Below are positions 11,535-34,457 of a DNA stretch of 36,544 nucleotides, in pieces. The number at the start of each line of letters is the position of its first letter. Positions within the stretch are counted from its first letter, which is position 1. A program made the translations under genes and the position numbers. The notes beneath the pieces are model-generated. The model had not been told where the DNA came from, searched no databases, and saw only the letters and a list, made by a program, of their open reading frames with translations. Source of the DNA: Verrucomicrobiia bacterium (GTDB lineage: Bacteria; Zixibacteria; MSB-5A5; DSPP01); assembly GCA_035574275.1 (NCBI GenBank), contig DATLYY010000007.1, positions 68,928-105,471 of the forward strand, written 5' to 3'.

Positions 11535-13819
11535 TGAAAAAAACGTTCGGCTTGTCTTTTTTGGTTTCACTTCTGACCTGTTCCGCCGCATTTGCTTTCG
11601 TCATCGGCGAGTGGAAAAACTACACAAATACGAACGACGTTCGCGGCTTTGCCTATTCCGGCGGCTATCTCTGGGTCGCCACCACCGGCGGATTGGCTCG
11701 CTTTGACCCCGTAACCGAAAGCCGCCAGGTTTACACCAACGCCGAAGGATTGGGAGGCAACTTCCTTTTGTCGGTGGCCGCCGACGGAAGGGGGAACGTC
11801 TGGGCGGGGGCTGACAACGGCACCCTGACCAAGTTTGAATTGGCCCGCAATCGTTTTACCGTTTATCCGATGATGGCGCCGGATGGCCGGGCGCTCAAGC
11901 TTTCCGCCATCCTGCCGGACTCAGATCGGCTCTGGATTGCAACGGACATCGGGGTGGCCTTGTTCCTTACCGAGCGGAACGGCGGCGAAATGAAGGAAAT
12001 TTACCGCCGGCTCGGTACCATCAATATCGAAACGCCCGTGCGCTCCCTCACGCTTTTCCGCGACTCCATTTGGGCCGCCACGCCGCAGGGGGTGGCGTGC
12101 GGGTATAAAAACGATCCCAATCTTCTGGATCCGGCCCGCTGGCTAAGCTTCCGCCGCAGCAGCAATGTTGGCTTGAATCATGAAGATTCTTATTCACTTT
12201 TGAATTTTCAGGACACCCTTTTGGTTGGGACTATAAAAGGAATTTATTCGTTTGTTCCCGACTCCGGCCGCTTTCGGCGTTTCCGGCCGGAAGTCGATTC
12301 GTTCGGGTTTGTCACCACAATGGCAGCCTTCGCTGACACGCTGTATGCGTCTTTTCAGTTTGGTTTGACGGGAGTCACGCCGACCGGCGCCTTTCTTCTG
12401 GGCAGCGACACGGTAGAGGGCGCCCGCGTTTTTCCCGCATTATTTGTGACTTCCCAAAATCAGCTCTTTGCCGGCACGGGCGGGAAGGGGTTTGCCCGCT
12501 GGCGGGGCGGTTTCTGGTCCATTTACCGCCCCTTGGGGCCGCCCGGAAATTATTTTGACGATTTAGCGGTGGATGCCGGCGGAAAAATCTGGTGCGCCAA
12601 CGACCGGTACGGTGCCTCAATGTTTGACGGTTTAAACTGGACGATTCTCGACCCGGCCATCTATCCGCAAATTGCCGGACAGGCCTGGGGCATCGACATC
12701 GACCAAGCCGGCAACAAGTGGTACAGCTTCTGGGGAGCGGGGGCCTCGGCTGTCTGGGGTTTAGGTTTTCCTCCGGACAGCATCACCCGCTACGATTCCA
12801 CCAACTCACCCTTCCGAAGAATCACATCCAGCGACCCTTCGCTTATTGTCACGGATGCCGCCGTGGATGATTACGGCAACGTCTGGTTTCCGAACGTGCG
12901 CCTCGATACGGTTGGCCCGGGTTTGGTAGTGCGTAGACCTGGGGGAACTTTTACGACATTCAGTAAAACCGTCTGGCTCGAAGGGACAGATAGTCTTGTT
13001 TCCAGCGACATCGTGGCCTTGTATCCCTTCGGCAATCATATCTGGATTGCCTTCAAGACCGCTGGCGCCACAGCCGGCGTGGCGGATTTGAACTTGGACT
13101 CTTTAATTTGCCGTGGTGTCTTTCCCTTCGAGATTTGCCTGAGTGATACGGTGCTTACCTATTACAACAAGGAGAATAATTTTCTTTTAGACAATCGGGT
13201 GACCGCCATTGCAGTCGACCGCCAGGGAACTTTGTGGGCCGGCACCGGGCTGGGGCTTTCCCGTTTCAATGCCGATTTCAGCATCTTCGAAACCGTCCCC
13301 CTGCCGCCGCCGGTGGGGCAGGTGAACTCCATCGTGGTGGACCCGCGCAACAACAAGTGGATTGGCATGACCAACGGGCTGGTTTTAATCACTCATGAAG
13401 GGGAGATTTTCGGCCCCTTCACGCCGGAAAACTCCGGCCTCGTGGCTCCCTTGATTAACGATATGGACTTCGACCCCAAAACGGGCTACCTCTGGATTGG
13501 CACCACCGGCGGGCTTTCGCGTCTCTCCACACAGGTTTTGGAGGAAACCGTGCCCCCCTCGGCGGTTGAGGCGTTCCCCAATCCCTTTATTATTCGTACC
13601 GGCAGCGAGCGGGTCTATTTTCGCCGGCTCCCCTTGGAGGCCCGGCTGCACATCTACACCACGGCTGGGGAGGAGGTGCGGCGGCTGGAAAAGGCCGACT
13701 TTTGGGACGGAAAAAACTCACAGGGAAAATATGTCGCTTCAGGCATTTATCTTTTCTTGGTGCACGTCCCCGGCCAAAAAAGTTTCACCGGCAAATTGGC
13801 CCTTATCCGGCAGTTTTAA
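11531..13819 (+). CDS. Secreted double beta-propeller protein with C-terminal sorting/FlgD-like domain
   Basis: A 762-residue protein with a signal peptide (MMKKTFGLSFLVSLLTCSAAFAF). From about residue 35 to 665 it has roughly fourteen repeats of the two-component-regulator propeller type, with cores such as 'LWVATTGGLARF', 'VWAGADNGTLTKF', 'LWAGTGLGLSRF' and 'LWIGTTGGLSRL', enough for two seven-bladed propellers. The C-terminal ~85 residues start with 'AFPNPF' and include 'LHIYTTAGEEVRRL' and 'YVASGIYLFLV', the pattern of FlgD-type Ig domains and type IX sorting tails. It has no kinase or regulator domain, so it is probably an exported binding or surface protein. It overlaps lnt by 4 bases; the next gene starts 1 base after its stop. 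The ligand is unknown. Confidence 0.85.
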   Translation: MMKKTFGLSFLVSLLTCSAAFAFVIGEWKNYTNTNDVRGFAYSGGYLWVATTGGLARFDPVTESRQVYTNAEGLGGNFLLSVAADGRGNVWAGADNGTLTKFELARNRFTVYPMMAPDGRALKLSAILPDSDRLWIATDIGVALFLTERNGGEMKEIYRRLGTINIETPVRSLTLFRDSIWAATPQGVACGYKNDPNLLDPARWLSFRRSSNVGLNHEDSYSLLNFQDTLLVGTIKGIYSFVPDSGRFRRFRPEVDSFGFVTTMAAFADTLYASFQFGLTGVTPTGAFLLGSDTVEGARVFPALFVTSQNQLFAGTGGKGFARWRGGFWSIYRPLGPPGNYFDDLAVDAGGKIWCANDRYGASMFDGLNWTILDPAIYPQIAGQAWGIDIDQAGNKWYSFWGAGASAVWGLGFPPDSITRYDSTNSPFRRITSSDPSLIVTDAAVDDYGNVWFPNVRLDTVGPGLVVRRPGGTFTTFSKTVWLEGTDSLVSSDIVALYPFGNHIWIAFKTAGATAGVADLNLDSLICRGVFPFEICLSDTVLTYYNKENNFLLDNRVTAIAVDRQGTLWAGTGLGLSRFNADFSIFETVPLPPPVGQVNSIVVDPRNNKWIGMTNGLVLITHEGEIFGPFTPENSGLVAPLINDMDFDPKTGYLWIGTTGGLSRLSTQVLEETVPPSAVEAFPNPFIIRTGSERVYFRRLPLEARLHIYTTAGEEVRRLEKADFWDGKNSQGKYVASGIYLFLVHVPGQKSFTGKLALIRQF

Positions 13820-13820
13820 G

Positions 13821-14780
13821 TTGATTAGGCTTCTCAAACTTTCCGAGCTGGAACGGCCGAAGTGGGAAAAACTTTTGGCAGCCGCCCCTTCCGCCACTTT
13901 TTTCCACACCGCTGAATGGGCCCAGCTCTGGGAAGAGAGCTATTCGTTTTTTAAAAGCTGCTTTCTGGTCGATGTCGCCCCGGACGGGAGCTACCGTGCC
14001 GGGTTACCGTTCGTCCGGGCGCGCAAAGGGCTGGATAACTACTATTCCATGCCCATGGGCAGTTACGGCGGCGTGATTTCCACAGAATCCGGCCTGGAGG
14101 GCGCCCTGTACACCGAATGGCTGAAACTCGCAAGACATCCACGCACGGAACGGCTGATGGTCTCTGCCGAGCAGGAAACGCCGGCGCTGGTTGCGCTTGG
14201 TTTCTCTTCCAAAACCAATTTCACCCACTCGTTGATCCTAACGCCGGATTACGGCGCCCAGCTCTCCCGCTCGGCCCGCAAGGATATCGAACACGCGCGG
14301 CAGGCCGGGTTTTTCTTGGACCGGCTGGAAAATAAAGAAACGCTGGCCGAGTTCTTCGCTTTTTCCGGCCGTAGAGCGGAGAAAGATTTTTATACAAAAC
14401 GATTCTTTGAAAATCTTTTCGCCATTTTGATTCCATCCAAACGGGCCGCCTGGTTTTGCGCCCGCAAAAATGGAGTTCTGGCGGCCTATCAAATTTGCTT
14501 TCTTTTCAAGGATAAAATCGTTTTCTGGGATACCGGCTTTGACCCCCGATTTTCAGAGGATCGCCCCGGCTATTTCCTGATGGATGGAATCCTGTCTTGG
14601 GCTTTGGAGAACGGTTTCAAGGAAGCCGGTTTCGGTCAGACGCCCGAAGGAGCAAAGGGTGCCCTCGAATTCAAAGAGCGGATGGGTGGGGAGAAAAAGA
14701 CGGTCTTTGAATACGGCCATGCGTCGCCCCTGAAACGAAAGCTCCGCTCCGCTTTCGAAAAAGTCCGGGGCCGGAAGTGA
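13821..14780 (+). CDS. FemAB/GNAT-like aminoacyl- or acyl-transferase
   Basis: A 319-residue protein resembling the FemAB-type fold (tandem GNAT domains), members of which attach amino acids to peptidoglycan precursors or act beside exopolysaccharide genes. Supporting strings are 'ATFFHTAEWAQLWEESYSF' near residue 26, 'GLPFVRARKGLDNYYSMPMGSYGG' region near 60-80 (the family's PFGSYGG-like motif), and the second-domain pattern 'AAYQICFLFKDKIVFWDTGFDP' followed by 'GYFLMDGILSWALENGFKEAGFG'. I infer a TTG start at 13821, one base after the propeller stop; an in-frame ATG at 13728 would add 31 residues of non-family sequence antiparallel in meaning to the propeller frame and is less likely. The stop overlaps the next GTG start by 4 bases. 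The substrate is unknown; the glycosyltransferase neighbours suggest envelope glycan or peptidoglycan. Confidence 0.75.
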   Translation: MIRLLKLSELERPKWEKLLAAAPSATFFHTAEWAQLWEESYSFFKSCFLVDVAPDGSYRAGLPFVRARKGLDNYYSMPMGSYGGVISTESGLEGALYTEWLKLARHPRTERLMVSAEQETPALVALGFSSKTNFTHSLILTPDYGAQLSRSARKDIEHARQAGFFLDRLENKETLAEFFAFSGRRAEKDFYTKRFFENLFAILIPSKRAAWFCARKNGVLAAYQICFLFKDKIVFWDTGFDPRFSEDRPGYFLMDGILSWALENGFKEAGFGQTPEGAKGALEFKERMGGEKKTVFEYGHASPLKRKLRSAFEKVRGRK

Positions 14781-15847
14781 AGATTCTTTTTTTGGGGGAT
14801 GCCCATAGTATTCACTTCATCCGCTGGGTTCGTTTTTTTGCCGCCCGGGGGCACGAGGTTTTCGCTTGGTCGGCCGAGCCGCCCAAGGAGGAAATTCCCG
14901 GTTACCGCCGCCTCTTTCCACGCCTGCCGGGGCGGGTTTTGGGCTATCTTTCGCTTGTGCGGGAGCTCAAAAAAGAGATCGCCAAACTCGGGCCTGATTT
15001 GGTCAATGCCCACTTTGTTCCCAACTACGGTTTCATCAGTGCCCTGGCCGGTGCCCGGCCGCTGGCCATCACCACTTGGGGATCGGACGTTCTGATTTCC
15101 CCCCACAAAAGCTTTCTGCACAAATGGCGCGCCTCCCACTCCCTTTCCAAAGCCGGTCTGGTTTTGGCGGATTCGAAAGCGTCGGCGCTCGAGGTTTTGT
15201 ACCTCGGCGTGAACAAGAACAAACTTCTTTCCCGCCCGATGGGGGTGGAGCGGGCTTTTGTGCAGCAAGGGGAAAAAAGAGCCTTATCAGGCACGAAGGA
15301 AAATTTGACGATTCTTTCCTGCCGGCGGCTGGAAAAACTGTACAATGTCGAGACTCTTATTCGGGCGCTCGCCCGGTCAAAATCCGCCCCCAATTGGCAG
15401 GCGGTAATTATCGGAACGGGCTCGCAGAAATTTAAGCTGGAAAAACTGGCTTCCAGGCTGGGAGTCGCCAACCGGCTCTCATTTCTGGGGGAGCTTTCGG
15501 TATCCGATTACCGCAAAATGATGCTGGAGGCTGACATCTACGTTTCCACCGCCCTTTCCGATTCCACCTCCGTTTCGCTGCTTGAGGCGATGGCTTCGAA
15601 GCTGGCCTGCGTAGTGACCGAAATCCCCGGCAATTCCGAGTGGATTACGGTTATGGAGAATGGACTAACCTTCGTCCCGAAAAATGATGAAATGCTGGCC
15701 TTTCTCATCGGCAAACTTTTAGACGACCCGGAACTGCGGATGCGGCTGGGCGAGCGGGCTTTCGAGCGTGTCTCCGCCCGGGCGGTATGGGAGGATAATA
15801 TGGCCGACGTGGAGGAGGCCTTTTTGAAACTGGCGGGGAAACATTAA
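14777..15847 (+). CDS. Glycosyltransferase family 4 (GT-B fold)
   Basis: A 356-residue cytoplasmic retaining glycosyltransferase. The N-terminal Rossmann half starts with MKILFLGDAHSIHFIRW and includes 'GPDLVNAHFVPNYGF' and 'ITTWGSDVL'. The C-terminal half has the GT4 nucleotide-sugar site: 'ILSCRRLEKLYNVETLIRA', 'IIGTGSQKFKLEKLA', 'LLEAMASKLACVVTEIPGN' (the E-x7-E-like region) and 'NGLTFVPKND'. GTG start at 14777 overlaps the FemAB-like gene; the stop shares a base with the next ATG (TAATG). Donor and acceptor sugars cannot be inferred. It is the first of four consecutive sugar-transfer genes. Confidence 0.9.
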   Translation: MKILFLGDAHSIHFIRWVRFFAARGHEVFAWSAEPPKEEIPGYRRLFPRLPGRVLGYLSLVRELKKEIAKLGPDLVNAHFVPNYGFISALAGARPLAITTWGSDVLISPHKSFLHKWRASHSLSKAGLVLADSKASALEVLYLGVNKNKLLSRPMGVERAFVQQGEKRALSGTKENLTILSCRRLEKLYNVETLIRALARSKSAPNWQAVIIGTGSQKFKLEKLASRLGVANRLSFLGELSVSDYRKMMLEADIYVSTALSDSTSVSLLEAMASKLACVVTEIPGNSEWITVMENGLTFVPKNDEMLAFLIGKLLDDPELRMRLGERAFERVSARAVWEDNMADVEEAFLKLAGKH

Positions 15848-17076
15848 TGAACCGGTCGATTCTCGTCATCAGCTACTATTTCCCGCCGCTTGGAATGGCC
15901 GGGATCCAGCGGCCGCTCGGATTGGCCAAATATCTTCACCGGCTGGGTTGGCGCGTTTATGTGCTGACCGTAAAACCCGTTTCCTATTGGGAAACGGATT
16001 CAACCCTTCTCGAAACCTTTCCCAAAGAAATTCCCATTTTCCGCGCCGGTTCGCTGGACCCGGCAAGAGTATCTTACTTAATGGGGCGGAAAAAAAGAAC
16101 GGATGCGGGCTTCCGCTCCTTCTCTGAAAAATTGCCTTGGGATTCGAAACTCGGCTGTGTGCCGTTTCTCTGGGCCAAGGGGTGCCGCCTGATTGAAAAG
16201 TTCTCCATTGCGGTCGTTTGGACGACCTCCCCGCCTCCCTCCATCCATCTGGCCGGGCTCTGGCTCAAACAGACCAACGAGGTCCGCTGGTTCGCCGACT
16301 TCCGCGACCCTTGGGAGGTGGAAGCGCCGGGGGAGAGCTCCACCCCCTGGCAAAGACGGCAAAAAAAGCTGAAACGGCTCCTGTCCGCCGCCGGCGGAGT
16401 AACGGCGGTCAACGACGGCTTGAAGGATTTTCTTGCCTCCTTGGTAGGAGAGGGCAAAGTGACCACCGTCTTCAACGGCTTCGATCCGGAGTTAAAAGTT
16501 CCCACTCCGGCATCTTCGCAAAAGCTTTTCACGCTGGCCTACGGCGGAACCTTAAGCCCGGCCACCAGCCCGCTTTCATTCTTCCAGGCGCTGGCCCGCT
16601 GGAAAAAAGAGAAAAAAAGAAGTTTCCGGCTGTTTTTGGCCGGAAAAACCCTCGGCTTGGCGGTCACCGAATGGGTGGAGGAACTCGGTTTAGCCGGGGA
16701 AACCGAACTTGCCGGCTATCTTGCGCATCGTCTTCTTTTGGAAAGGCTTGCCGCAGCGGACGTTTTGCTCCTTTTCTTGTCCCCGGAGGAAAAATACCGT
16801 TTAACAACTCCCGCCAAACTTTTCGAATATGTTGGCTTGGGCAGGCCGGTTCTGGCCGTCGCCACGGAGAAAGGAGCAGTGGCCGAATTTTTGGCGCAAT
16901 ATCCGGTCGGCGTGCTTTGTAGCCGGGAAGAGGAAATTGTCGAGAAGCTGGAGTATTACTATCAACAATGGGAGAAGGGTTCTTTGCCCGCTCTTCCCGA
17001 AACTTTGCGCGCGCCGTTCGGCTGGGATAAGCAGGCCGAACGGCTGTCGAATTTCATCGAGTCCCGGCTGAAATGA
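15847..17076 (+). CDS. Glycosyltransferase, GT4-like (GT-B fold)
   Basis: A 409-residue protein with the N-terminus typical of a GT-B subgroup found in polysaccharide clusters: 'SYYFPPLGMAGIQRPLGLAKYL' region (residues 9-30), 'GWRVYVLTVKPV' and 'ADFRDPW' near residue 150. The C-terminal half has 'LAYGGTLSP', 'FRLFLAGKT', 'LLERLAAADVLLLFLSPEEKY' and 'KLFEYVGLGRPVLAVA', the nucleotide-sugar-binding region, where E-Y-V-G-L-G-R-P-V is the family signature. The start shares a base with the preceding stop; the stop overlaps the next ATG by 4 bases. It probably acts in the same glycan pathway as its neighbours. Confidence 0.88.
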   Translation: MNRSILVISYYFPPLGMAGIQRPLGLAKYLHRLGWRVYVLTVKPVSYWETDSTLLETFPKEIPIFRAGSLDPARVSYLMGRKKRTDAGFRSFSEKLPWDSKLGCVPFLWAKGCRLIEKFSIAVVWTTSPPPSIHLAGLWLKQTNEVRWFADFRDPWEVEAPGESSTPWQRRQKKLKRLLSAAGGVTAVNDGLKDFLASLVGEGKVTTVFNGFDPELKVPTPASSQKLFTLAYGGTLSPATSPLSFFQALARWKKEKKRSFRLFLAGKTLGLAVTEWVEELGLAGETELAGYLAHRLLLERLAAADVLLLFLSPEEKYRLTTPAKLFEYVGLGRPVLAVATEKGAVAEFLAQYPVGVLCSREEEIVEKLEYYYQQWEKGSLPALPETLRAPFGWDKQAERLSNFIESRLK

Positions 17077-18536
17077 ATTTCTGGCAGAATTGGTCGCTCC
17101 GCAGAAAAATTTTTGTAATGATTCTTCTGCACGTTACCTTCTTGTCAATTTTTATGTTCCTTCGGCTTATCGATGCCGACGAGGGGCTTTACGTCTCCGC
17201 CGCTAGGGAAGTCGCCGCTGGAAATCACCCCTATCTGGATTTCGCCTATGTCCATCCACCCTGTTTTCCCTATTTATTGGCTCCCTTCTCTGGTTGGGGC
17301 TGGGCAAGTTTGTTTGTATCTCGAATTGTTTCCGCCCTTCCATCCCTGTTTATCGGTGTTTTGCTTTTTTTGATAGCCCGGCGGTTGTGGAACGAAAAAA
17401 TCGGATTCGTTCTCTGGGGTTTTTGGATGCTTCACGGCTTGCTTTTGGCCAATCACTCAGTCGCCAAGCCGCTCGCTTGGGCCGATTTGTTTGTTATTTT
17501 GTCTTTTTGGTTTCTGATTGAAGCGAGGAGCTGGGCCGGCCATCTTTTCAGCGGGTTGGCCGTCGGAATGGCCGCCAACTTGCGCGGTTTTATGCTGGTT
17601 CCCCCAGTCGTATTTTTTCTTTACCTGCTTTTCCGCGCAGAAAAGCCGCGAACGGAAAGGATTCTGTACTGGTGTTTCGGTTTTTGCGCCACTTTTTCAT
17701 TTTCTCTTTACTTTTTCCTGCGCGAGCCGGGTGGATTCATCTTCGACAACCTGACCTACCACTATCTATGGGGTGTGCGGGTGGTGATGGAGGGGGGTCG
17801 GTTCGATTTTTTGGACCGGCTCGCCAGCTTGGCCAAGTTCGTCCTCTTTCCGCAGAATTCCGTTCTCCTCCTATTGGCCGCCGGCGCGGTGCCCGCTTTT
17901 TTTCAAACAGATGACAATCACCGAAAGAACCAAATTCTCCTAATGACCGCCCTATTTACGGCGCTTGTGCTCACCTTCTTTTCCACAACTCCGTCCCCGC
18001 TGGCCTATTACGTCCAGACCGTTCCTTACCTTGTGTTATTGGCCGGCTTTGGCGTAAATCGATTGCTGGAAGGAGGGAGGGAGCCATTCTCACCCCTATT
18101 CCGCCGGGGGCTCATTGCCGCCCATCTCTTCTCGCTGGCGCTCATCGCCTACATTTTTCTTTTTGGCCAGCGCCCCCGCGACAGGCAGTATTTGTTGTCC
18201 AGTGTAAAGCCGGTTATTGAGTATTTGCGGGAAAACGGAACTCCAACCGACACGGTTTTTTCCGAATGGCCGGGGTACGCTGTTCTGTCAGGGATGCAAC
18301 TGCCAAAGGGAACGGAGACGGTGGGGTTGGATGTCGCCCACTTGTTGACCGCCGAAGAAAAGATGACCTACCATATTCTTGATTCCGCCGGCGTCGATTC
18401 CCTTCTGTCGCAGAAAAAAATAAAATGGGTCGTCACCGGCGGAACCGTTTCCGCCGTTTGGCCCAAACCGCTGGCCGACAACTATACCGCCGTCCTTCAA
18501 GCCGTTCCGGCCACTATTTACCGCCGAAATGAGTAG
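17073..18536 (+). CDS. Polytopic membrane glycosyltransferase, GT39/ArnT-like
   Basis: A 487-residue membrane protein with about ten to twelve predicted membrane segments in the first 370 residues and a soluble C-terminal tail. The first periplasmic loop reads 'RLIDADEGLYVSAAREVAAG' followed by 'YLDFAYVHPPCFPYLLAPF', the acidic D-x-D/E plus H-P-P pattern of GT-C enzymes that take sugars from polyprenyl phosphate (dolichol-P-mannosyltransferase/ArnT type). The C-terminal segment (about 375-487) resembles the post-membrane domain of such proteins. It starts with a 4-base overlap and its last 8 bases overlap the next gene. It is the only GT-C protein in the cluster, so it probably transfers sugar on the periplasmic side; the acceptor is unknown. 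Confidence 0.8.
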   Translation: MNFWQNWSLRRKIFVMILLHVTFLSIFMFLRLIDADEGLYVSAAREVAAGNHPYLDFAYVHPPCFPYLLAPFSGWGWASLFVSRIVSALPSLFIGVLLFLIARRLWNEKIGFVLWGFWMLHGLLLANHSVAKPLAWADLFVILSFWFLIEARSWAGHLFSGLAVGMAANLRGFMLVPPVVFFLYLLFRAEKPRTERILYWCFGFCATFSFSLYFFLREPGGFIFDNLTYHYLWGVRVVMEGGRFDFLDRLASLAKFVLFPQNSVLLLLAAGAVPAFFQTDDNHRKNQILLMTALFTALVLTFFSTTPSPLAYYVQTVPYLVLLAGFGVNRLLEGGREPFSPLFRRGLIAAHLFSLALIAYIFLFGQRPRDRQYLLSSVKPVIEYLRENGTPTDTVFSEWPGYAVLSGMQLPKGTETVGLDVAHLLTAEEKMTYHILDSAGVDSLLSQKKIKWVVTGGTVSAVWPKPLADNYTAVLQAVPATIYRRNE

Positions 18537-19389
18537 CCCGAAAATCTCGGTTGTCTGCGTCACCTTCAACTCTGCCGATTCGTTGCCCGATTTCCTAAAA
18601 AGTTTGGAACAACTTCCTTCGGTGGAGTTTGAATTTATTTTTATCGATAACTATTCCACCGATTCCTCCGTAGGGGTTGTCCAAAAATGGAAAAGGGCTT
18701 CGCAACTTATTCGAAATGAACAGAATTTGGGCTGGTCGGCCGCCAACAACCAAGGTATCAAGGCTTCAAAAGGGGAGTTGATTTTTTTTGCCAACCCCGA
18801 TATTTGGTTTGAGGCGAATGACTTGCAGAAATTGGCCCAATTTCTTGACCAATATCCGGAATTTGCCGCCGTCGCTCCCCAACTTTTAAATCCGGACGGC
18901 AGCATTCAGCCCTCCTGCCGCCGGCTGCCAACTTTGTCCGATTTGATTTTCCAAATGACCGGCCTGGCATTTCTTTTTCCCAAATCCTTCTTCAATCGCT
19001 GGAAGATGCCTGGGTTTGACCACCAAAATTTTCGGGATGTGGAGCAGCCGATGGCTTCCGCGCTTTTGATACGGCGGATGGTTTTTGAAAAAATCGGCGG
19101 GCTGGATGAACGGTTTTTCGTCTTTTTCGGGGATGTCGACTTCTGCCGCCGGTTAAAAGATGCCGGATTCCGCATTGCCTTCGTTCCGGAAGCTAAGTTT
19201 TTCCACCGGCGAGGCGGCTCCACCCGCCAAATGGGCGCACGTTTTTACTTTTCCTCCCATTTCGGGTTCTTCCACTACCTTTGGAAATGGTCGAATCCAA
19301 TTGAAAAGCTTTTGCTACTATTCCTATGGCCGCTTGTTTTGCTGACCGCACTCGGTAGGGCGGTCGCCGCTTTCGTATTCCGCCGCTAA
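18529..19389 (+). CDS. Glycosyltransferase family 2, rhamnosyltransferase-like
   Basis: A 286-residue GT-A fold enzyme. N-terminal 'ISVVCVTFNSADSLPDFLKSL', 'FIDNYSTDSS' and 'NLGWSAANNQGI' are standard GT2 strings; 'FFANPDIWF' holds the metal-binding acidic motif, and 'MASALLIRRMVFEKIGGLDERFFVFFGDVDFCRRLKDAGF' contains the acceptor-site E/D-D-x-D-x-C-x-R region seen in WbbL-like rhamnosyltransferases. Hydrophobic residues at about 258-283 could anchor it to the inner membrane. ATG 18529 overlaps the previous gene by 8 bases. It is the last gene of this transcript; a terminator lies 62 bases downstream, separating it from the dcw promoter. Confidence 0.9.
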   Translation: MSSPKISVVCVTFNSADSLPDFLKSLEQLPSVEFEFIFIDNYSTDSSVGVVQKWKRASQLIRNEQNLGWSAANNQGIKASKGELIFFANPDIWFEANDLQKLAQFLDQYPEFAAVAPQLLNPDGSIQPSCRRLPTLSDLIFQMTGLAFLFPKSFFNRWKMPGFDHQNFRDVEQPMASALLIRRMVFEKIGGLDERFFVFFGDVDFCRRLKDAGFRIAFVPEAKFFHRRGGSTRQMGARFYFSSHFGFFHYLWKWSNPIEKLLLLFLWPLVLLTALGRAVAAFVFRR

Positions 19390-19450
19390 GTTCTTTTTTT
19401 CACATTCAAAAAAGCACTAAGCAAGCAACTTGCCGTTTCGTTTTCATTCC

Positions 19451-19475
19451 GGAGGGCGTTTGTCCTCCTTTTCTT
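19451..19475 (+). terminator. Rho-independent terminator before the dcw promoter
   Basis: Stem GGAGG (19451-19455) with CCTCC (19464-19468), extendable by a G-T pair, closes an internal loop of 6-8 bases and is followed by TTTTCTT. It sits between the GT2 gene and the mraZ promoter and insulates the dcw operon. The stem is short, so termination may be partial. Confidence 0.7.
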
Positions 19476-19506
19476 AAAAATTTTTTGCAAAAAACCGAGA
19501 TTTTTC
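19476..19506 (+). promoter_or_regulatory. A/T-tract UP-like element upstream of the mraZ promoter
   Basis: An A-tract and T-tract block (AAAAATTTTTT, then AAAAAA, then TTTTT) immediately upstream of the -35 hexamer. In known strong promoters such tracts bind the RNA polymerase alpha C-terminal domain; that role is inferred here from position and composition. Confidence 0.5.
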
Positions 19507-19535
19507 TTGACAAGGGAAGTGGGGAGGAATAATAT
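19507..19535 (+). promoter_or_regulatory. Sigma-70-type promoter of the dcw operon (mraZ promoter)
   Basis: Consensus -35 TTGACA at 19507-19512, an exact 17-base spacer and a near-consensus -10 TAATAT at 19530-19535. It is the only near-perfect promoter I found in the window. The predicted transcription start is near 19542, giving a leader of about 130 bases before the mraZ ATG. An upstream terminator makes this the probable main promoter for the whole cluster. Confidence 0.85.
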
Positions 19536-19575
19536 GGAGTGGATTTTTTTGGGTGGAAGTGGGGAAAAGTGGTAA
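19518..19575 (+). promoter_or_regulatory. MraZ operator: 10-bp-phased TGGGN-type repeats
   Basis: TGGGG at 19520, TGGAT at 19540, TGGGT at 19550, TGGGG at 19560 and TGGTA at 19570 lie at exact multiples of 10 bases. Four of them share the longer core AGTGG (19518, 19538, 19558, 19568). The one empty phase (19530) is occupied by the -10 hexamer. E. coli MraZ binds TGGGN direct repeats spaced by 5 bases, and Mycoplasma MraZ binds AAAGTG[G/T] repeats; GAAGTGGGGA and AAAAGTGGT here fit both. The overlap with the promoter predicts repression by MraZ. Confidence 0.8.
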
Positions 19576-19671
19576 AGCGAAAGCGTTAGGGCGGGTTTAA
19601 AAGAAGTGAAAAAATTGGACCTTTCCGGACGTGAAGGTCTCGGATGAAAGGAAAGAGAAGCTTTTTTTCGT

Positions 19672-20118
19672 ATGGCCGGATATACCGGGAACTACCGCAC
19701 GTCGGTGGACGACAAGGGACGCATGGCCATCCCCGCCAAGCTGCGAAAGGGGGGAGGGGAGAAATTTTACCTCTCCCCCGGTTTCGGGGACTACCTCGTT
19801 CTGTATCCGGAGTCGGAGTGGGAGGGGATTGAAAAAAATCTTTCCGGGCAATCCTTCACCAAAGGGGCCTTCCGGGATTTTGCCCGCTACCTTTATGCCA
19901 ACTCTCAAGAAGTCGCCCCGGACGCGCAGGGGAGAATCTTGATTCCCGCCGAGTTTCTGAAAGACGCGGGAATTTCCGGCGAGGCGATGGTTTTGGGGGT
20001 TTCCCGCTGGATGGAAATCTGGAGCCCGGCCCGCTTCAAAAATTTTACGGCCCGCATGAAGCCGAAATGGGACAAGGTGGCGGAAAAAATTCTGCCCGGG
20101 CCTTCGGGGGGAGCGTAG
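19672..20118 (+). CDS. mraZ: Transcriptional regulator MraZ
   Basis: A 148-residue DNA-binding protein that autoregulates the dcw operon in species studied. It has two SpoVT/AbrB-like half-domains, seen as DDKGRMAIPAKLR (residues 13-25) and DAQGRILIPAEFL (84-96). It assembles into rings that read phased direct repeats; matching repeats lie at its own promoter. ATG 19672 is the only in-frame start consistent with the family N-terminus, since a stop codon lies in frame at 19645-19647. The ribosome site is not ideal: the purine-rich AAGGAAAGAGAAG is separated from the ATG by a T7 run. rsmH begins 3 bases after the stop. Confidence 0.95.
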   Translation: MAGYTGNYRTSVDDKGRMAIPAKLRKGGGEKFYLSPGFGDYLVLYPESEWEGIEKNLSGQSFTKGAFRDFARYLYANSQEVAPDAQGRILIPAEFLKDAGISGEAMVLGVSRWMEIWSPARFKNFTARMKPKWDKVAEKILPGPSGGA

Positions 20119-20121
20119 TGG

Positions 20122-21024
20122 GTGCACCGGCCGGTGCTGGTTCAGGAAGCGCTCTCGTACTGGTTCGTGCGGCCGGAGGGCGTGTACGTGGATGCGACCC
20201 TTGGAGGAGGGGGTCACACTAAGGCGCTGTTGGAACATCCCCGTTTTAGGGGGACGGTAATCGGAATCGACCGGGATAGGATGCCGGAGGAAAAGGCGTT
20301 GGAAAATCCGCGTTTTTCGTTTTACCGGGGAAATTTTGCCGGGATGCCGGACTTGCTGGCGCAAGGCGGGGTCGCCCAGCTATCCGGCATTCTCTTTGAC
20401 TTCGGGTTGTCCTCCGAACAACTGGACGATCCTGCACGCGGCTTGTCCTTCCAATTGGACGGCCCGCTCGATATGCGCTTCGACCGGGAACAGCCGCTCA
20501 CCGCCGAAAAAATTTTAAACGAATACCCGGAAGAAAAACTGTCTGAGATTTTTCACGGTTTTGGCGAAGAGCCAAAAGCCAGGGCGCTGGCCCGGTTTTT
20601 AGTCCGCACCCGTCAAAAAGAAAGAATAACCACAACGGGGCAACTGCGGAAGCTGTTGTTTGCTTTCTGGAGAAAACCGGATCCCCGCCGCTTTCTGGCG
20701 CGCATATTTCAGGCCCTGCGCATCGCGGTCAATGATGAATTACAAAACATCCAACGCGGACTCTCGGTTTCGCTCCCGCTTCTGGAACCGGGGGGGCGGC
20801 TGGTCGCCATTTCTTATCATTCTTTGGAAGACCGCTTGGTCAAGGATTTTTTCAGACGGGAATCATCCGATTGCATCTGCCCGCCGGGCCTGCCGGTTTG
20901 CCAATGCGGGCATCGCGCTTCTTTAAGGATTTTGACATCCAAACCGGTTGTGCCTTCGCAAAAGGAGAAGAAGGAAAACCCCCGTTCGGCATCGGCCAAG
21001 CTTCGGGCGGCCGAGAAAATATGA
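20122..21024 (+). CDS. rsmH: 16S rRNA m4C1402 methyltransferase RsmH (MraW)
   Basis: Methylates N4 of C1402 in the P-site region of 16S rRNA using SAM. The 300-residue length is typical. Motifs: HRPVLVQEAL at the N-terminus, SAM-binding 'VDATLGGGGHTKALL' near residue 24, 'GIDRD' near 48, 'GILFDFGLSSEQLDDPARGLSF' region near 90-112 with 'LDMRFD', 'RIFQALRIAVNDEL' near 195-208 and 'ISYHSLEDRLVKDFF' near 233. GTG start at 20122, with the conserved MHRPVL beginning directly there. The stop overlaps the ftsL ATG by 4 bases. Standard second gene of dcw clusters. Confidence 0.97.
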   Translation: MHRPVLVQEALSYWFVRPEGVYVDATLGGGGHTKALLEHPRFRGTVIGIDRDRMPEEKALENPRFSFYRGNFAGMPDLLAQGGVAQLSGILFDFGLSSEQLDDPARGLSFQLDGPLDMRFDREQPLTAEKILNEYPEEKLSEIFHGFGEEPKARALARFLVRTRQKERITTTGQLRKLLFAFWRKPDPRRFLARIFQALRIAVNDELQNIQRGLSVSLPLLEPGGRLVAISYHSLEDRLVKDFFRRESSDCICPPGLPVCQCGHRASLRILTSKPVVPSQKEKKENPRSASAKLRAAEKI

Positions 21025-21446
21025 GACGCTTTTTTGCTTTTTATTTGTTTCTCTTCAAAACACGCCTGGCCAAGGCGTTCGGCTGCGTGGTCTTGGCGGT
21101 CGGCTTGGCGGCGGCCTATATCGGCCAGCGGGTGAAAACCTACTCCCTTTTGGAAGAAACGGCGGCCTTGGAGGCCGAAAAGCAAAAACTGGTGGAAAAC
21201 ATCGCCTATTTGGAGGAAGCGGTAGCCCGCGCCTCCTCCGTTGAGGCCCTGGAGCCGAAGGCGTACCCGCTGGGGCTGGAGTACCCCCGGCTGGGGCAGT
21301 TGGCGCGGCTTCCCCTTTTCCCGGTGTCGGAAGAAAATCTTTGGCAAAAATCGCTGGATGACCGGGGAATTTTGGCCCGCCTGCGGCAGAATTTCCCCTT
21401 CAAGGAGGCGGTGGTCGTAGCCCGCGAGTTCAAAAATGGCAAGTAG
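21021..21446 (+). CDS. ftsL: Cell division protein FtsL (divergent)
   Basis: A 141-residue bitopic membrane protein that helps activate FtsWI septal synthesis. It has a short basic N-terminus, one membrane segment (about residues 18-36), a Leu/Glu-rich coiled coil (about 40-72) and the FtsL-type C-terminal motif with 'LGLEYPRLGQLARL' at about residues 84-97. The family is poorly conserved, so the assignment rests on topology, that motif and the position between rsmH and ftsI. ATG 21021 overlaps the rsmH stop by 4 bases; longer in-frame starts from 20871 lie inside rsmH. The ~40 residues after the motif are longer than in many FtsL proteins. Confidence 0.82.
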   Translation: MRRFFAFYLFLFKTRLAKAFGCVVLAVGLAAAYIGQRVKTYSLLEETAALEAEKQKLVENIAYLEEAVARASSVEALEPKAYPLGLEYPRLGQLARLPLFPVSEENLWQKSLDDRGILARLRQNFPFKEAVVVAREFKNGK

Positions 21447-23385
21447 ATTCCCAATCGGCGTTTCGAAAGGGCGCGTCAAGCTGCTTTTATCCCTTTCGCT
21501 TTTGGTCTGGGGGGCTTTGGTTTTGCGTTTGGCGCAAATCCAGATTTTCTCCGGCCCGCGCTACGCCAAGATGGCCCGGGAGCAGGAAAAAGGGGTCAAA
21601 ATTCTGGCGGGCAGCCGGGGGATCATCTACGATCGGAACGGAGAGGTTTTGGCCAAAAACCTGGCCACCTATTCCTTTTTCAGCTTCGCCGAAAGCCTGC
21701 CCGCCCCCCGTTTCTTGGCCCAGAGCGTTTTCCGCGGAAAGTTATCCGAGCGGGAGCTCGCGCAGAAGAAGAAACGGAAGGGCTTCGTCTGGCTGGCGCG
21801 GGATGTGGAAAAGGGGGAGGCGGAAAAGATTTTTGCGCGGCGCCCGCGCGGCATTTACGTCACCCCCGAAGAAAAGCGGGCCTATCCGTATTACCCCCTC
21901 GGAGTGGACTGGCTGGGCTTCACCAGTGTCGATAACGCCGGTCAGTCCGGGCTGGAGCTCTTTTACGATAAGCATCTGCGTGGCGATTCCGCCCAACTCC
22001 CCCTGGTTCGGGATGCCCGCGGCCGGACTTTCTCGGTGGAGGAAAAGCAGACCCGCCCGAAAGCGGGGCAAAATTTAATCACCACCATCGATTTCCGGAT
22101 GCAGTCGGTTCTCGAAGAAGAGCTGGAGCAGGCGCTAAAGAAATCCAAGTCGGCCGGCGCCTGGGGCATTTTTATGAACCCCAAAACGGGGGAAATCTGG
22201 GCGATGGCCTCCGTTCTTTCCGGAAACCCGGACCCGCGCGCCACCCGCCAGAAAAATCGGCTGGTGGCGGATCTGTTCGAGCCCGGTTCCACCTTCAAGC
22301 TCGTGACGGCGGCGGCGGCTTTGGAAAAAAAGAAATTCTCCCCCCGCTCCCTCATCAACTGCGAAAAAGGGAAGTACAAAATCGGAAAACGAACCATCCG
22401 GGATGTTCACCCCCACGAGTATTTGACCTTCGAGGATGCCGTGGTGAAATCCTCCAACATCGCGTTGGCAAAAATCGGCCTGGCCATAGGAGGGTCGGGC
22501 TTTTATGAAGCGGCCCGTAAATTCGGTTTCGGGGAAAAAACCGGCATCGACTTGCCGGGGGAGGCAAGCGGACAGTTTCCCTCCGAGGCGGCCCTTTCGC
22601 GCGAGATTCGGCTGGCCACTTGTTCCTACGGCTACGGCGCTTCGGTCACCGCGTTGCAACTCGTTTCCGCCTACGGCGCGGTGGCCAACGACGGTGTTAG
22701 GATGAAGCCTTATATCGTCAAGGAAATTCGGGACGAAAAAGGAGAATTGATCCAGCAAAATCTCCCCACGCCGATGGGGGAAGCGGTCTCCAAAAGGACG
22801 GCAGAGATGCTTCGCCGCTTTTTTTCCGGCGTGGTGGACTCCGGCACGGCCCAAGCTGCCGGTATGGAGGGCGTCACGGTCGCTGGCAAAACCGGCACCT
22901 CCAAAAAAATCGACCCCGAGACCCGGCGCTACGCCCAGGGGCGCTACGTCTCCTCCTTCGTCGGCTTTTTCCCGGCCGATTCCCCGCGGGTGGTCGGTTT
23001 TGTCGCTTTGGACGAGCCGAAGGGGGCCTACTATGGCGGCGAAGTGGCGGCGCCGATCTTCCGCAAAACGGCGGAAAAATTTTTGACCCTCTTGGACGAA
23101 CCGCTCCGGCCCGGGGAGCCGAAAGAAGAATCGTTTGAGTTAATACAGCTGGCCTCCGCCGCCGGGTATAAAACGCCCCCCCCAGTCGGGAGCTGGCGGC
23201 TGGACGAAGTACCGGATTTTGCCGGCATGCCGGTGCGGTTGGCCCTGCGGGAAGCCGCCGCCCGCGGGCTTTCCGTGCGGGTAAAAGGGAAAGGAGTGGT
23301 GCGGGAGCAAAACCTGCCGCCCGGTAGCTCCATCGACCGGTCGGAGGTGGTTTTGTGCTGCCGCCCCCCCTTCACGGATGAGTGA
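21436..23385 (+). CDS. ftsI: Septal peptidoglycan transpeptidase (PBP3-type) with C-terminal PASTA domain
   Basis: A 649-residue class B penicillin-binding protein that cross-links septal peptidoglycan, partner of FtsW. One N-terminal membrane helix (about residues 14-34) is followed by a pedestal domain starting with 'GSRGIIYDRNGEVLAKN' and the transpeptidase domain. Catalytic motifs: S-x-x-K as GSTFK (Ser285), S-x-N as SSN (about Ser339) and K-T-G as KTGTS (about Lys485). The C-terminal ~60 residues (about 585-645) look like one PASTA domain ('VPDFAGMPVRLALREAAARG'). It overlaps ftsL by 11 and murE by 8 bases. The symbol follows position; with PASTA it also resembles SpoVD/PBP2X-like proteins. 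Confidence 0.95.
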   Translation: MASRFPIGVSKGRVKLLLSLSLLVWGALVLRLAQIQIFSGPRYAKMAREQEKGVKILAGSRGIIYDRNGEVLAKNLATYSFFSFAESLPAPRFLAQSVFRGKLSERELAQKKKRKGFVWLARDVEKGEAEKIFARRPRGIYVTPEEKRAYPYYPLGVDWLGFTSVDNAGQSGLELFYDKHLRGDSAQLPLVRDARGRTFSVEEKQTRPKAGQNLITTIDFRMQSVLEEELEQALKKSKSAGAWGIFMNPKTGEIWAMASVLSGNPDPRATRQKNRLVADLFEPGSTFKLVTAAAALEKKKFSPRSLINCEKGKYKIGKRTIRDVHPHEYLTFEDAVVKSSNIALAKIGLAIGGSGFYEAARKFGFGEKTGIDLPGEASGQFPSEAALSREIRLATCSYGYGASVTALQLVSAYGAVANDGVRMKPYIVKEIRDEKGELIQQNLPTPMGEAVSKRTAEMLRRFFSGVVDSGTAQAAGMEGVTVAGKTGTSKKIDPETRRYAQGRYVSSFVGFFPADSPRVVGFVALDEPKGAYYGGEVAAPIFRKTAEKFLTLLDEPLRPGEPKEESFELIQLASAAGYKTPPPVGSWRLDEVPDFAGMPVRLALREAAARGLSVRVKGKGVVREQNLPPGSSIDRSEVVLCCRPPFTDE

Positions 23386-24889
23386 GCTGTTTTCCGCCCC
23401 CCTGCCGGGGCCGGTCAAAAAAGAGGAAATCTTGAAAATTCTGCCGGAAGCCAAGGAAATCGGGGAACTTCCGCCGCAGTTTACGGGAGTGGAGTGCGAT
23501 TCCCGCAAGGTGACCAAGGGGGCGCTTTTTTTCGCCATTCCGGGTTTCAGGCAGGACGGCCGGCAATATGTGCCGGATGCGGTGAAAAGAGGGGCCGCCG
23601 GCGTGGTCACGGTGAACTTTGGACTGGAAGCCGAAGTGGGCTGGCTGGTGGTGCCGGAGATTCGCATCGCGTTGGCAAAAGTGTCCCATTTGGCCTACCG
23701 CCACCCGGCCGACAAACTTTTGCTTTTCGGCGTTACCGGCACGAACGGCAAATCGACCGTGGCTTTTTTGATGCGGGACATTTTAAAAGAGGCCGGTATG
23801 AACCCGGCCGTTCTGGGTACCATCGCCTACGAATTTGCCGGAGCATCCATCCCGGCTTGGAACACCACGCCGGAGTCACTCGACTTGGCCCGCTTCTTCC
23901 ATAATATCACCGAGCGAGGAGGAAAGGCGGCCTCCATGGAGGTCTCTTCCCACGCTTTGGCCCTGGGGCGGGTGGAGGAGATTTTGTTCGACGTCGCCGT
24001 CTTCACCAATTTGACCCGCGACCATTTGGACTTTCACAAAACGATGGAGGCCTACCGCGAGGAGAAGCTGAAACTTTTCACGCAGCATCTTAAGCCCAAT
24101 GGCAAGGCGGTTTTGAACCTGGACGTCCCGGAGTTTGAATTTTTCCGCAAACTGACCAAGGGGAAGGTTTTCACCTATTCCGCCGAACATCCCACCGCCG
24201 ACTTGCAGGCCGTGAAATACCGCTTCACCACGGAAGGGACGGAAATTGATTTTTCCTGCAAAGGGAAGAAGTTTTCATTGAAATCGCATCTGGTCGGTCC
24301 CTTCAACTTGCAAAACCTGCTGGCGGCCGCCGCGGCCGGGCTGGCGCACGGTTTTCCGGTCGATACCGTCCGTGTCGCTCTGGAAAAATCCCCCCCCGTG
24401 CCGGGCAGGGTGGAGCAGGTGAAAGCCGGCCAGCCGTTCATCGTGGTGGTGGATTACGCCCACACCCCGGACGGAGTGGAGCAGATTTTGAAACTGGCCC
24501 GCTTCTTCAAGCCGAAGCGGGTGTTGGTCGCTTTCGGCTGCGGCGGGGATAGAGACAAAGGCAAAAGGCCCTTGATGGCGCAGGCCGCCGAAAAGTACGC
24601 CGATTTGATATTTCTCACCTCCGACAATCCCCGCACCGAACCGCCGGAGCAAATCATCGAGGAAACCTTGTTCGGTTTTGCCGACCGCTCCAAAGTCCGA
24701 AAGATTATTGACCGGAAAGAGGCGCTTTTTGCCATGGTAGAGGAGGCGAAAGATGGGGATTTTCTGGTGGCCTGCGGGAAGGGGCACGAGACCTACCAGC
24801 AAATCGGCGAGAAAAAATTTCCGTTCGACGATAGGGAGGTTTTTCGGGAGGCCTTGAAAAAGAGAGGGTATGCTGGCGGCGGCAACTGA
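23378..24889 (+). CDS. murE: UDP-MurNAc-L-Ala-D-Glu:meso-diaminopimelate ligase
   Basis: Adds the third residue of the stem peptide in the cytoplasm with ATP. The 503-residue protein has the three Mur-ligase domains: N-terminal UDP-binding ('GVECDSRKVTKGALFFAI'), central ATPase with P-loop GVTGTNGKST starting near residue 118, 'NTTPESLDL' and 'MEVSSHALALGRV', and the C-terminal domain with 'VDYAHTPDGVEQIL' and 'FGCGGDRDKGKRPLM'. The DNPR motif at residues 416-419 is the established marker for meso-DAP rather than L-lysine. The start overlaps ftsI by 8 bases; the 3' end overlaps murF by 20 bases. Confidence 0.97.
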   Translation: MSELFSAPLPGPVKKEEILKILPEAKEIGELPPQFTGVECDSRKVTKGALFFAIPGFRQDGRQYVPDAVKRGAAGVVTVNFGLEAEVGWLVVPEIRIALAKVSHLAYRHPADKLLLFGVTGTNGKSTVAFLMRDILKEAGMNPAVLGTIAYEFAGASIPAWNTTPESLDLARFFHNITERGGKAASMEVSSHALALGRVEEILFDVAVFTNLTRDHLDFHKTMEAYREEKLKLFTQHLKPNGKAVLNLDVPEFEFFRKLTKGKVFTYSAEHPTADLQAVKYRFTTEGTEIDFSCKGKKFSLKSHLVGPFNLQNLLAAAAAGLAHGFPVDTVRVALEKSPPVPGRVEQVKAGQPFIVVVDYAHTPDGVEQILKLARFFKPKRVLVAFGCGGDRDKGKRPLMAQAAEKYADLIFLTSDNPRTEPPEQIIEETLFGFADRSKVRKIIDRKEALFAMVEEAKDGDFLVACGKGHETYQQIGEKKFPFDDREVFREALKKRGYAGGGN

Positions 24890-26333
24890 AAATTTGGTAA
24901 AAATGGCCAAGGAGACCCCCTCTTACCGCGTGCTCTTCGGCGAAGCGGGGGGCTTTTCCGCCGGGCAGATTGCCTGGGCGGTAAAGGGGGAGCTTTTCGG
25001 CATAAGCCAGGCGGAGCATTTTTACGCCGTCACCACCGACACCCGGCAACTGGCCCGCGGCGACATTTTCTTCTCCCTGCCGGGTGAAAAAATGGATGGG
25101 CACCAGTATCTCGAAAAAGCGTTTTCTGCCGGGGTCGGTTTGGCGGTGGTCTCCAAGACGTGGTATCTGCAAAACCGGCCGGAAGGAAAACCGTTGCTCG
25201 TTGTGCCGGACACCTTGAAGTCCTTTGGCGATTTGGCCGCCTGGTACCGGGGGCGTTTTTCCCTAAAAGTGGCCGGCATTACCGGCTCCTCCGGCAAAAC
25301 CACGGCCAAAGGGATGAGTATGGCGGCTCTTGCCGCCAGCTTTCCGACCTCCGGCTCGCTCGGCAACTTCAACAATTTGATTGGTCTGCCGCTCTCGATT
25401 TTCACCTTGAATAAGGAACACAAGGCCGCCGTGTACGAAATCGGCATCTCCAAATTGGGAGAAATGGAGCGGGTGGCTTTAATCTGCCGGCCTGATTTCG
25501 GCGTCGTATTGAACATCGGCGACACCCATCTCGAGTTTTTGGGGACAAAAGAAAATGTGATGCGCGAAAAGTGCAAACTGGCGGACGCCCTTCCGCCGGG
25601 GGGAAAGTTTTTTTTGAACGCCGACGACCCCATGCTTGCCAAATTCCGTCCCCGGCCGGAGATTCAACTCTGCCGGTTCGGAATCGACAAGCCGGCCGAT
25701 TATTGCGCCTCGGATTTGAAGCCGAACAAGAAGGGCGGCTATGATTTCGTTTACAACGGAAAACTCCCCGTCTCCCTATCCATAATGGGACGGCATCAAA
25801 TTTACAACGCGCTGGTTGCGCTGGCGCTGGCGGAAACGATGGGCGCCGATTTGGAAAAAGGGCGCGTGGCCCTCGAAAACTTTCGGCCGGTCGCCTGGCG
25901 GATGGAACTGGAAGAAGTTGCCGGAATCTCCATTCTGAACGACAGTTATAACGCCAACCCCGACTCTATGCGGGCCGCTTTAGCCACCCTTGCGGAGCAA
26001 AAAGCGGCCCGCAGGGTGGCCTGTCTGGGGGATATGCGGGAACTGGGGGAAAAGTCGCAGGCGTTACACGCGGAAGTCGGCAAAAAAGCGGCGGAGGCAA
26101 AGCCGGATATTTTGGTGGCCATCGGGCCGAAGTCAAAAGCGCTTTCGGAAGCGGCGGTTGCTTCCGGCTTGGATGCCAAAAGGGTCTTTTGGTTTCCTGA
26201 TAAAAATGAGGCGCTCGGCTTTCTCGTTGAAAATCTGCGCACAGGGGATTTCGTTTTGGTCAAGGCCTCGCGCGGAACCGGCTTGGACGTTTTGGTGCGC
26301 GGGTTGAAGGAAAATCTGGCGGGGAGGAATTGA
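24870..26333 (+). CDS. murF: UDP-MurNAc-tripeptide:D-alanyl-D-alanine ligase
   Basis: Adds D-Ala-D-Ala to the UDP-MurNAc-tripeptide, the last cytoplasmic precursor step. The 487-residue protein shows 'VTTDTRQLARGDIFFSLPG' in the N-terminal domain, P-loop GITGSSGKTT starting near residue 136, 'GNFNNLIGLPLSI', 'EIGISKLGEMERVALICRPD', 'LNIGDTHLEFLGT' and 'NDSYNANPDSMRAAL' near residue 353, all MurF signatures. ATG 24870 follows a GAGAGGG ribosome site within murE; an in-frame ATG at 24903 is an alternative. The stop shares a base with mraY (TGATG). No ddl is adjacent, so D-Ala-D-Ala must be made from elsewhere. Confidence 0.96.
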   Translation: MLAAATENLVKMAKETPSYRVLFGEAGGFSAGQIAWAVKGELFGISQAEHFYAVTTDTRQLARGDIFFSLPGEKMDGHQYLEKAFSAGVGLAVVSKTWYLQNRPEGKPLLVVPDTLKSFGDLAAWYRGRFSLKVAGITGSSGKTTAKGMSMAALAASFPTSGSLGNFNNLIGLPLSIFTLNKEHKAAVYEIGISKLGEMERVALICRPDFGVVLNIGDTHLEFLGTKENVMREKCKLADALPPGGKFFLNADDPMLAKFRPRPEIQLCRFGIDKPADYCASDLKPNKKGGYDFVYNGKLPVSLSIMGRHQIYNALVALALAETMGADLEKGRVALENFRPVAWRMELEEVAGISILNDSYNANPDSMRAALATLAEQKAARRVACLGDMRELGEKSQALHAEVGKKAAEAKPDILVAIGPKSKALSEAAVASGLDAKRVFWFPDKNEALGFLVENLRTGDFVLVKASRGTGLDVLVRGLKENLAGRN

Positions 26334-32477: not shown

Positions 32478-33199
32478 GACGCAAACTGCGGAACGCCGGG
32501 TTGGGCATTCTTCTTTGCCTGTTCATTCTCCCCTGGTATTTCTATTTCGGCCCGCAAGCGCCGGAAATCGCCCGGATTGTGGTGGAGGGGACGGAGACCG
32601 TCCCGCCGCGGGAGATCGCCCGGAAGCTGACCGATTTGAAGGGGAAGCCCTTCTCCGGCTTCTCCACCAAGCTGGCGGCGCAGGAGGTCTTGAAAGACCC
32701 GCGCATCGAAAAAACATCCGTGCGCTTCGCCTTTCCCAACAAACTGGTGGTCCGGGTGAAGGAGAAAAAATTCGATTATCTGCTTGTCTCCAACGAGCTT
32801 TTCGGCCTCTCGGAAAAAATGGAGATTTTTCCCCTGGGCGACAGCGTAAAAACGGGCGACCGGCTCGTGATTTCCGGCTGCGGCACCTTTACCGGCTGGT
32901 ACTACCGGCCGACTAAAACGCCGGCCTTCGGCCGGGTTTCCAATTTTCTGGCCTCCGTCCGCAAGGAGTTTCCGGAATTCCTGGATCGTGTTTCCCAGTT
33001 CGATTTCGAGGACCCGAACAATGTGAAAGCCTATTTGCAGCAGGGGGGTACGGAGATCAGTTTGGGCGCCGCGCCGTTTGAGCCGAAGCTTCTGCTTTTA
33101 AAACAGATGGCCGCCTCGGGCTTCCCGGCCGGGAATCTGGATTTGCGCCAGAAAAACGCGGTGTACGGCTTTGTCGGTGTGCCGGAGGAAAACAAATGA
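32474..33199 (+). CDS. ftsQ: Cell division protein FtsQ
   Basis: A 241-residue bitopic divisome protein that links FtsL/FtsB-type partners to the late divisome. It has a short basic cytoplasmic N-terminus, one membrane helix (about residues 9-27), a POTRA domain (about 33-100, starting 'EIARIVVEGTETVPPREIARKL' region) and a beta domain typical of FtsQ/DivIB ('IEKTSVRFAFPNKLVVRVKEKKF' marks the POTRA to beta junction). Identity is supported by the murC-ftsQ-ftsA position. ATG 32474 overlaps the murC stop by 4 bases; longer in-frame starts lie inside murC. The stop overlaps ftsA by 4 bases. Confidence 0.9.
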   Translation: MRRKLRNAGLGILLCLFILPWYFYFGPQAPEIARIVVEGTETVPPREIARKLTDLKGKPFSGFSTKLAAQEVLKDPRIEKTSVRFAFPNKLVVRVKEKKFDYLLVSNELFGLSEKMEIFPLGDSVKTGDRLVISGCGTFTGWYYRPTKTPAFGRVSNFLASVRKEFPEFLDRVSQFDFEDPNNVKAYLQQGGTEISLGAAPFEPKLLLLKQMAASGFPAGNLDLRQKNAVYGFVGVPEENK

Positions 33200-34456: not shown

Positions 34457-34457
34457 T

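Follow-up and report, generated by a model that had tools for sequence, protein, structure and literature searches.

The control region of the dcw cluster in a Zixibacteria genome (G000) contains five TGG-cored boxes at exact 10-bp steps in and behind a sigma-70-type promoter. With a probability of roughly 0.85, judged from sequence comparison, we consider this array to be an operator through which MraZ would repress its own gene, reaching from the promoter spacer into the early transcript. The array lies within a 36,544-nucleotide stretch (G000:C7:68928-105471, the whole of which is hereafter called the window) of a 2.5-Mb draft genome. MraZ is a widespread regulator, the operator of which we found described in only a few species, and our literature search found no work on MraZ in Zixibacteria. 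Whereas the kind of operator is ordinary, its layout around the -10 element across the phylum is new.

The TTGACA-17-TAATAT promoter that had been predicted is present on the plus strand, with its -35 hexamer at 19507-19512, a 17-bp spacer and its -10 hexamer at 19530-19535, and so are the A/T tracts claimed upstream of the -35 (19474-19506, plus strand), which resemble and may act as an UP element. Matching 10 of 12 hexamer positions, with a spacer inside the 16-18 bp range applied, it is of the sigma-70 type and predicted to be used by sigma. The further claim that it is the best promoter in the window stands as far as a top score is concerned but not as to being alone: in a scan of positions 10000-29999 (11 matches versus 6.7 ± 2.2 in shuffled sequences), it is tied with a minus-strand match at 17148, also 10 of 12, that lies within a plus-strand open reading frame. 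The dcw promoter is separated from the glycosyltransferase-like gene before it by a terminator-like hairpin that matches the consensus (19451-19468, plus strand; 7 pairs, 5 of them G-C), is followed by TTTTCTT and would insulate this promoter; such hairpin matches number 57 in 20 kb versus 42.5 in shuffled sequences.

The five putative MraZ boxes, all on the plus strand, are box 1 (TGGGG, GGAAGTGGGGA; 19520-19524), in the spacer between the two hexamers; box 2 (TGGAT; 19540-19544), the weakest, near the transcription start that we infer from the -10 (19541-19543); box 3 (TGGGT, in the context TTGGG; 19550-19554); box 4 (TGGGG, GGAAGTGGGG; 19560-19564); and box 5 (TGGTA, AAAAGTGGTA; 19570-19574). 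Boxes 2 to 5 extend downstream of the -10 over the presumed start and box 1 is additionally upstream of the -10, in agreement with the original prediction of sites both inside the spacer and past the start. It had also stated that the -10 element fills the missing phase, and the 19530 phase, where a box would stand at +23 from the -35, is indeed occupied by TAATAT and has no box. Its description of the boxes as TGGGN-like needs correction: the five TGG cores occur in the phase that it gave, but only three of them read TGGG, the other two being TGGA (19540) and TGGT (19570). Two further TGG (19535 and 19554) in the same region are out of phase. Counted from the -35, the boxes lie at +13, +33, +43, +53, and +63, which is 3 bp off the slots found phylum-wide (see below).

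The gene behind this promoter (19672-20118, plus strand) is, according to its family and structure matches, mraZ at the head of a dcw cluster. Its 148-aa product, the presumed repressor, has two PF02381 half domains (51.9 and 47.1 bits; cut-off 23), TIGR00242 as best-scoring family (8.2e-27; 93.9 bits, cut-off 98.35), and matches to MraZ chains in the PDB with E values from 6e-13 to 1.5e-11 (entries including 9qlg, 9qlr, 9r4j, 9sx6, and 9sz7). It is 30% identical to E. coli MraZ and keeps the DxKGR and DxxGR signatures, D13-K15-G16-R17 and D84-G87-R88 being invariant between the two proteins in both halves; we take residues of these DxxGR-type signatures to be the ones that contact DNA. The second gene, directly behind, is rsmH (mraW; 20122-21024, plus strand; TIGR00006, 2e-88), and the remaining ones (21436-35672, plus strand), identified by family matches, encode an FtsI/SpoVD-type PBP, murE, murF, mraY, murD, ftsW, murG, murC, an unmatched ORF, ftsA, and ftsZ, to which the cluster reaches. 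The ORF between murC and ftsA (32360-33199) had no NCBIfam match at 1e-10; from the usual gene order, we would presume ftsQ or murB in this interval.

In the sister genome (G001, same genus), 62 of 68 positions from the -35 to the last box are identical to the window, about 49 of them in one unbroken stretch across the boxes, against 91/120 upstream, 60/105 aligned columns in the poorly conserved remainder of the mraZ leader (19575-19671, plus strand), and 383/447 within the coding sequence of mraZ itself. Box 1 is also present there, boxes 2, 3, and 4 are identical, and the slot of box 5 holds TGGG. The exact five-box layout is common only to these two genomes; a member of the same order (G002) has three boxes and lacks the one in the spacer. 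A scan of genome contigs with the window MraZ found one relative, L003 (89% identity in MraZ), which was counted as one with G001 because the two agree in the bases preceding mraZ.

Five in-phase TGG within 60 bp arose once in 10,000 dinucleotide shuffles of 19476-19575 and never in 10,000 shuffles each of 19390-19671 and 19513-19575, and runs of four in-phase TGG arose 1, 0, and 3 times per 10,000 in these respective regions. Among the 949 plus-strand and 560 minus-strand TGG of the window, a set filling five of six successive slots starts only at 19520. It is extremely improbable that the array is a functionless tandem repeat, produced by chance or by slippage in G-rich DNA. The plus strand is G-rich here and two of the boxes are degenerate, but the array is rare in shuffled sequences and conserved above its flanks, and its phase is found phylum-wide despite unlike spacers between the boxes.

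Within the 2.5-Mb genome, four TGG at 10-bp steps have a single match, the dcw promoter (reversed control, 0), which is also the single match of three TGGK (reversed control, 1). Since both patterns match nothing else there, we do not propose a second MraZ target. This exclusiveness holds for the genome itself but not for its relatives in general. Across 58 genomes (relatives and own), the four-TGG pattern matches 46 times, at mraZ in 10 cases (9 genomes) and elsewhere in 36, compared with 20 for the reversed control; eight of these 36 are repeats in G024, G036, and G042, another (G044:C7) looks like an mraZ promoter because it resembles that of G026, and one match away from mraZ also occurs in the sister genome. 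Three GTGG at 10-bp steps, a pattern that finds no match in the window (box 3 being TTGGG), yield 32 matches in the 58 genomes, 13 at mraZ in 10 genomes and 19 elsewhere, with 17 for the reversed control.

The array resembles the MraZ operators already described. The three boxes of E. coli were reportedly shown to bind MraZ by Eraso in 2014. As in the window, the E. coli K-12 promoter has TTGACA and TGGG boxes at exact 10-bp steps, which lie at +38, +48, and +58 from TTGACA, 5 bp from the window slots +43, +53, and +63. The downstream boxes are thus in nearly the same place, and the window adds a box at the start site and another in the spacer, neither of which E. coli K-12 has in the corresponding slots. 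The last box is also farther from the start codon (about 100 bp versus about 20 bp in E. coli K-12), and the E. coli rule that all boxes read TGGG applies to three of the five window boxes, T and A being common at this position of the slots in relatives. Papers citing the E. coli work speak, in the parts concerned with it, of a repeated sequence or of MraZ boxes (PMC7761207, PMC8475190). For the Burkholderia cenocepacia promoter PmraBc, the relevant passages of one of them report four 7-nt repeats with 3-nt spacers, found by eye, which follow the -10 and cover the start site, within a fragment shifted by MraZ in gels (PMC7761207). The 10-bp period and the repeats past the -10 and over the start site are shared with the window, which differs in having more than four boxes and in that those of B. 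cenocepacia are, in the same passages, described as downstream of the -10 (PMC7761207). In Mollicutes, the MraZ site consists of AAAGTG[T/G] direct repeats and the sole site of M. genitalium is at mraZ, according to the section of PMC8475190 that cites Fisunov 2016; the same core in direct repeats, and for M. genitalium a location at mraZ only, recall the window (PMC8475190). A different repressor or a nucleoid protein could in principle read the phased GTGG sites, with MraZ as a mere neighbour. We regard this as quite improbable, since the box sequence, the spacing, the offset from the -35, and the gene context all agree with described MraZ operators and the array occurs in its own genome only at mraZ.

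Conservation of the boxes and of their phasing in relatives had been set beforehand as a test that could refute the prediction, and the boxes survived it, with distance peaks at 10, 20, 30, and 40 bp in 102 regions. We searched 116 genomes. Of these, 105 have mraZ, and after three were dropped (G044, G052, and G058, with mraZ at a contig end), 102 usable upstream regions from 19 families remained, that of the window included. TGG pairs in these regions are 10 bp apart in 181 cases, 20 bp in 105, 30 bp in 58, and 40 bp in 41, compared with 2-19 cases for each distance more than 1 bp off a multiple of ten; 21 bp (30) and 31 bp (22) are intermediate. Control words form fewer pairs at 10 bp (GAG 17, CCA 0, ACC 1, and GGT 30, a weaker signal from a word that overlaps TGGT boxes). 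The 10-bp TGG pair is present in 16 of the 19 families.

For a common frame, promoters were anchored at the TTGAC nearest to the start codon and at least 45 nt away from it, found in 96 of the 102 regions (18 families, window included), and slots were read within ±1 bp. A first anchoring had chosen the -35 partly by the boxes behind it, and the TTGAC anchoring gave the same peaks. The remaining six regions, which lack TTGAC, fall outside this layout. As the genomes are related, counts are not independent, and families were therefore counted as well as genomes, f9 having a large share. TGG occurs at +10 in 40 of the 96 promoters (5 of the 18 families), at +20 in 5 (3), at +30 in 31 (10), at +40 in 59 (9), at +50 in 57 (9), and at +60 in 52 (5), compared with 1-9 genomes at each of the five half-phase slots (23 in total). 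The slots +10, +30, +40, +50, and +60 together hold 239 TGG versus 57 ± 7 in shuffled sequences, none of 300 shuffles reaching this value. Their fourth base is G in 102 cases, T in 64, A in 60, and C in 13. The original prediction had treated five boxes as a special number, and this did not hold up. The lattice (±1 bp) has 0 boxes in 1 genome, 1 in 1, 2 in 9, 3 in 30, 4 in 39, 5 in 15, and 6 in 1, so that five- or six-TGG lattices appear in 16 of the 96 promoters, with four repeats in B. cenocepacia, as described in part of PMC7761207, and three boxes in E. coli K-12; a lattice of five occurred in 5 of 1,920 shuffles. In one relative (G054), the mraZ upstream region without TTGAC (L108) has six successive TGG at steps of 11, 10, 10, 10, and 10 bp, a longer unbroken run than that of the window.

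Box 1, in the spacer, quite likely forms part of the operator. The highest-rated alternative, a variant nested in the operator reading whose odds overlap with it, is that only the boxes from 19540 to 19570 are bound and the one at 19520 is idle. E. coli and G002 have no spacer box and the Burkholderia repeats are, in the passages describing them, downstream of the -10 (PMC7761207), yet box 1 stays in step with the boxes behind the -10 despite the empty slot between them, as does the spacer box of many relatives (+10 TGG in 40/96), and we consider an idle spacer box unlikely. In the wider spacer interval (+6 to +14), TGG is found in 50 of the 96 promoters and nine families, and 39 of these 50 also hold at least two of the +40, +50, and +60 slots within 3 bp. 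These spacer and +10 counts are not independent, since the +10 TGG comes from 5 of 18 families and 32 of the 50 spacer TGG from f9.

The slot left empty at the -10 can be followed in the 75 genomes where three or more TGG share a phase. Where this slot falls at +19 to +23, it is filled in 4 of 65 cases, and where it falls at +17 or +18, in 6 of 7 (Fisher p = 9e-6, only a guide, since the groups were drawn after the sequences were seen, the tested slot may itself count towards the register, and just two families, f12 and f5, supply all six filled cases). One genome of register 4 (slot at +24) and two of register 5 (slot at +15), which belong to neither group, have it empty. Since most genomes whose register is clear of the -10 do have a box in this slot, the empty phase may reflect a conflict with the -10, which would displace a box only where both collide, and the vacancy would then not be a feature of MraZ itself. 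In G016 (TGGT-GTATCT-TGGT), a -10-like hexamer stands exactly in the gap between two boxes. The two register-5 genomes contradict such a conflict, their slot at +15 being clear of the -10 and yet empty. At +20 (±1), 29 of the 96 promoters have GTG followed by T, as in AAAGTGATAAT, whereas the window has no GTG there. In relatives, mostly from f9, AAAGTGATAAT or AAAATGTGATAAT is frequent at the -10 slot and combines a partial MraZ box with an (extended) -10, and TGTGATAAT can also be read as an extended -10; slots of the AAAGTGATAAT type could be MraZ boxes fused to the -10.

The richness in G of these promoters raises another explanation, namely that a G-quadruplex on the G-rich strand controls mraZ and that the phased TGG are its G-tracts. 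There is a precedent in Staphylococcus aureus, where, as the pertinent part of PMC11796246 reports, a G-quadruplex lies downstream of PmraZ and motifs are conserved in several bacteria, and the window shares with this promoter a G-rich stretch at mraZ (PMC11796246). G4Hunter maxima over 25 bp are 1.4 for G000 and 2.16 for G001; a value of 1.2 is attained by 27 of the 96 promoters. Unlike S. aureus, however, the window has helical spacing and lacks the canonical motif (four tracts of at least three G with loops of 1-7), which is found in only one of the 96 promoters (G101). The fourth base of the slot boxes also tolerates A, T, and C, which leaves a two-G tract in a slot that is nevertheless kept, and the exact 10-bp spacing would have no reason. 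For the rarity of the motif and this tolerance, we hold control by a quadruplex to be very improbable.

The MraZ operator reading suggests a simple negative feedback. A sigma-70-type promoter would drive mraZ and, from the gene order, probably the genes behind it as one transcript. MraZ, the first product, would bind GTGG-type boxes that return with roughly every helical turn on the same side of the DNA, its ring possibly spanning several of them, along a stretch that begins in the promoter spacer and ends near +30 of the transcript. Bound to boxes on either side of the -10, MraZ would keep polymerase from binding or from opening the promoter and so repress it, closing the loop on cell-wall and division genes. 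A box coinciding with the -10 would have been lost, as sigma must read that DNA. Occlusion of polymerase is the likeliest mode, since boxes from about -22 to +30 would leave it little room if filled; the downstream boxes might also prevent opening or escape.

More tentatively, and here we lean towards doubt, the dcw control region of the phylum may be a single 10-bp lattice of up to six slots (50-60 bp) that accommodates the promoter and, in many species, also the ribosome-binding site, a box being lost only where it overlaps the -10. With the register shifted by about 3 bp, the -10 would then lie between two neighbouring boxes, leaving the slot occupied. If this were true, five or six turns of DNA would run along a large part of the MraZ ring, and MraZ could act on the translation start or the early transcribed region, an action that the compared three- and four-box operators do not suggest. 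The lattices, mostly of two to six boxes and often on both sides of the -10, would allow one to ask, by comparing natural variants, how many sites a MraZ ring uses at once and whether MraZ blocks polymerase by covering the promoter, and the box register predicts the DNA for which the two would compete. In 30 of the 96 promoters, all from families f9 and f19 (e.g., L053 and L085), the last box and the Shine-Dalgarno sequence merge into GTGGAGG, which ends 4-11 bp before the start codon; MraZ boxes may limit, or borrow from, the ribosome-binding site in these families.

Several minor observations concern the leader and arrays located elsewhere. In the window and the sister genome, about 100 nt of mraZ leader follow the last box, with a possible small hairpin, seen by eye, near 19618-19639 in the former, whereas in many relatives the array ends near the start codon. 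TGG repeats spaced at 10 bp, such as TGGGTTATTATGGGTTTTCT, occur away from mraZ in G024 (contigs C123, C156, C168, and C204), G036 (C54), and G042 (C4 and C8); there are several per genome and they may be repeat-coding DNA rather than operators. Finally, G044:C7:20262-20294 holds a four-box array almost identical to that of the mraZ promoter of G026, a member of the same family. The mraZ match of G044 lies at the end of contig C118, and the array on C7 may serve a second or split copy of mraZ as its promoter.
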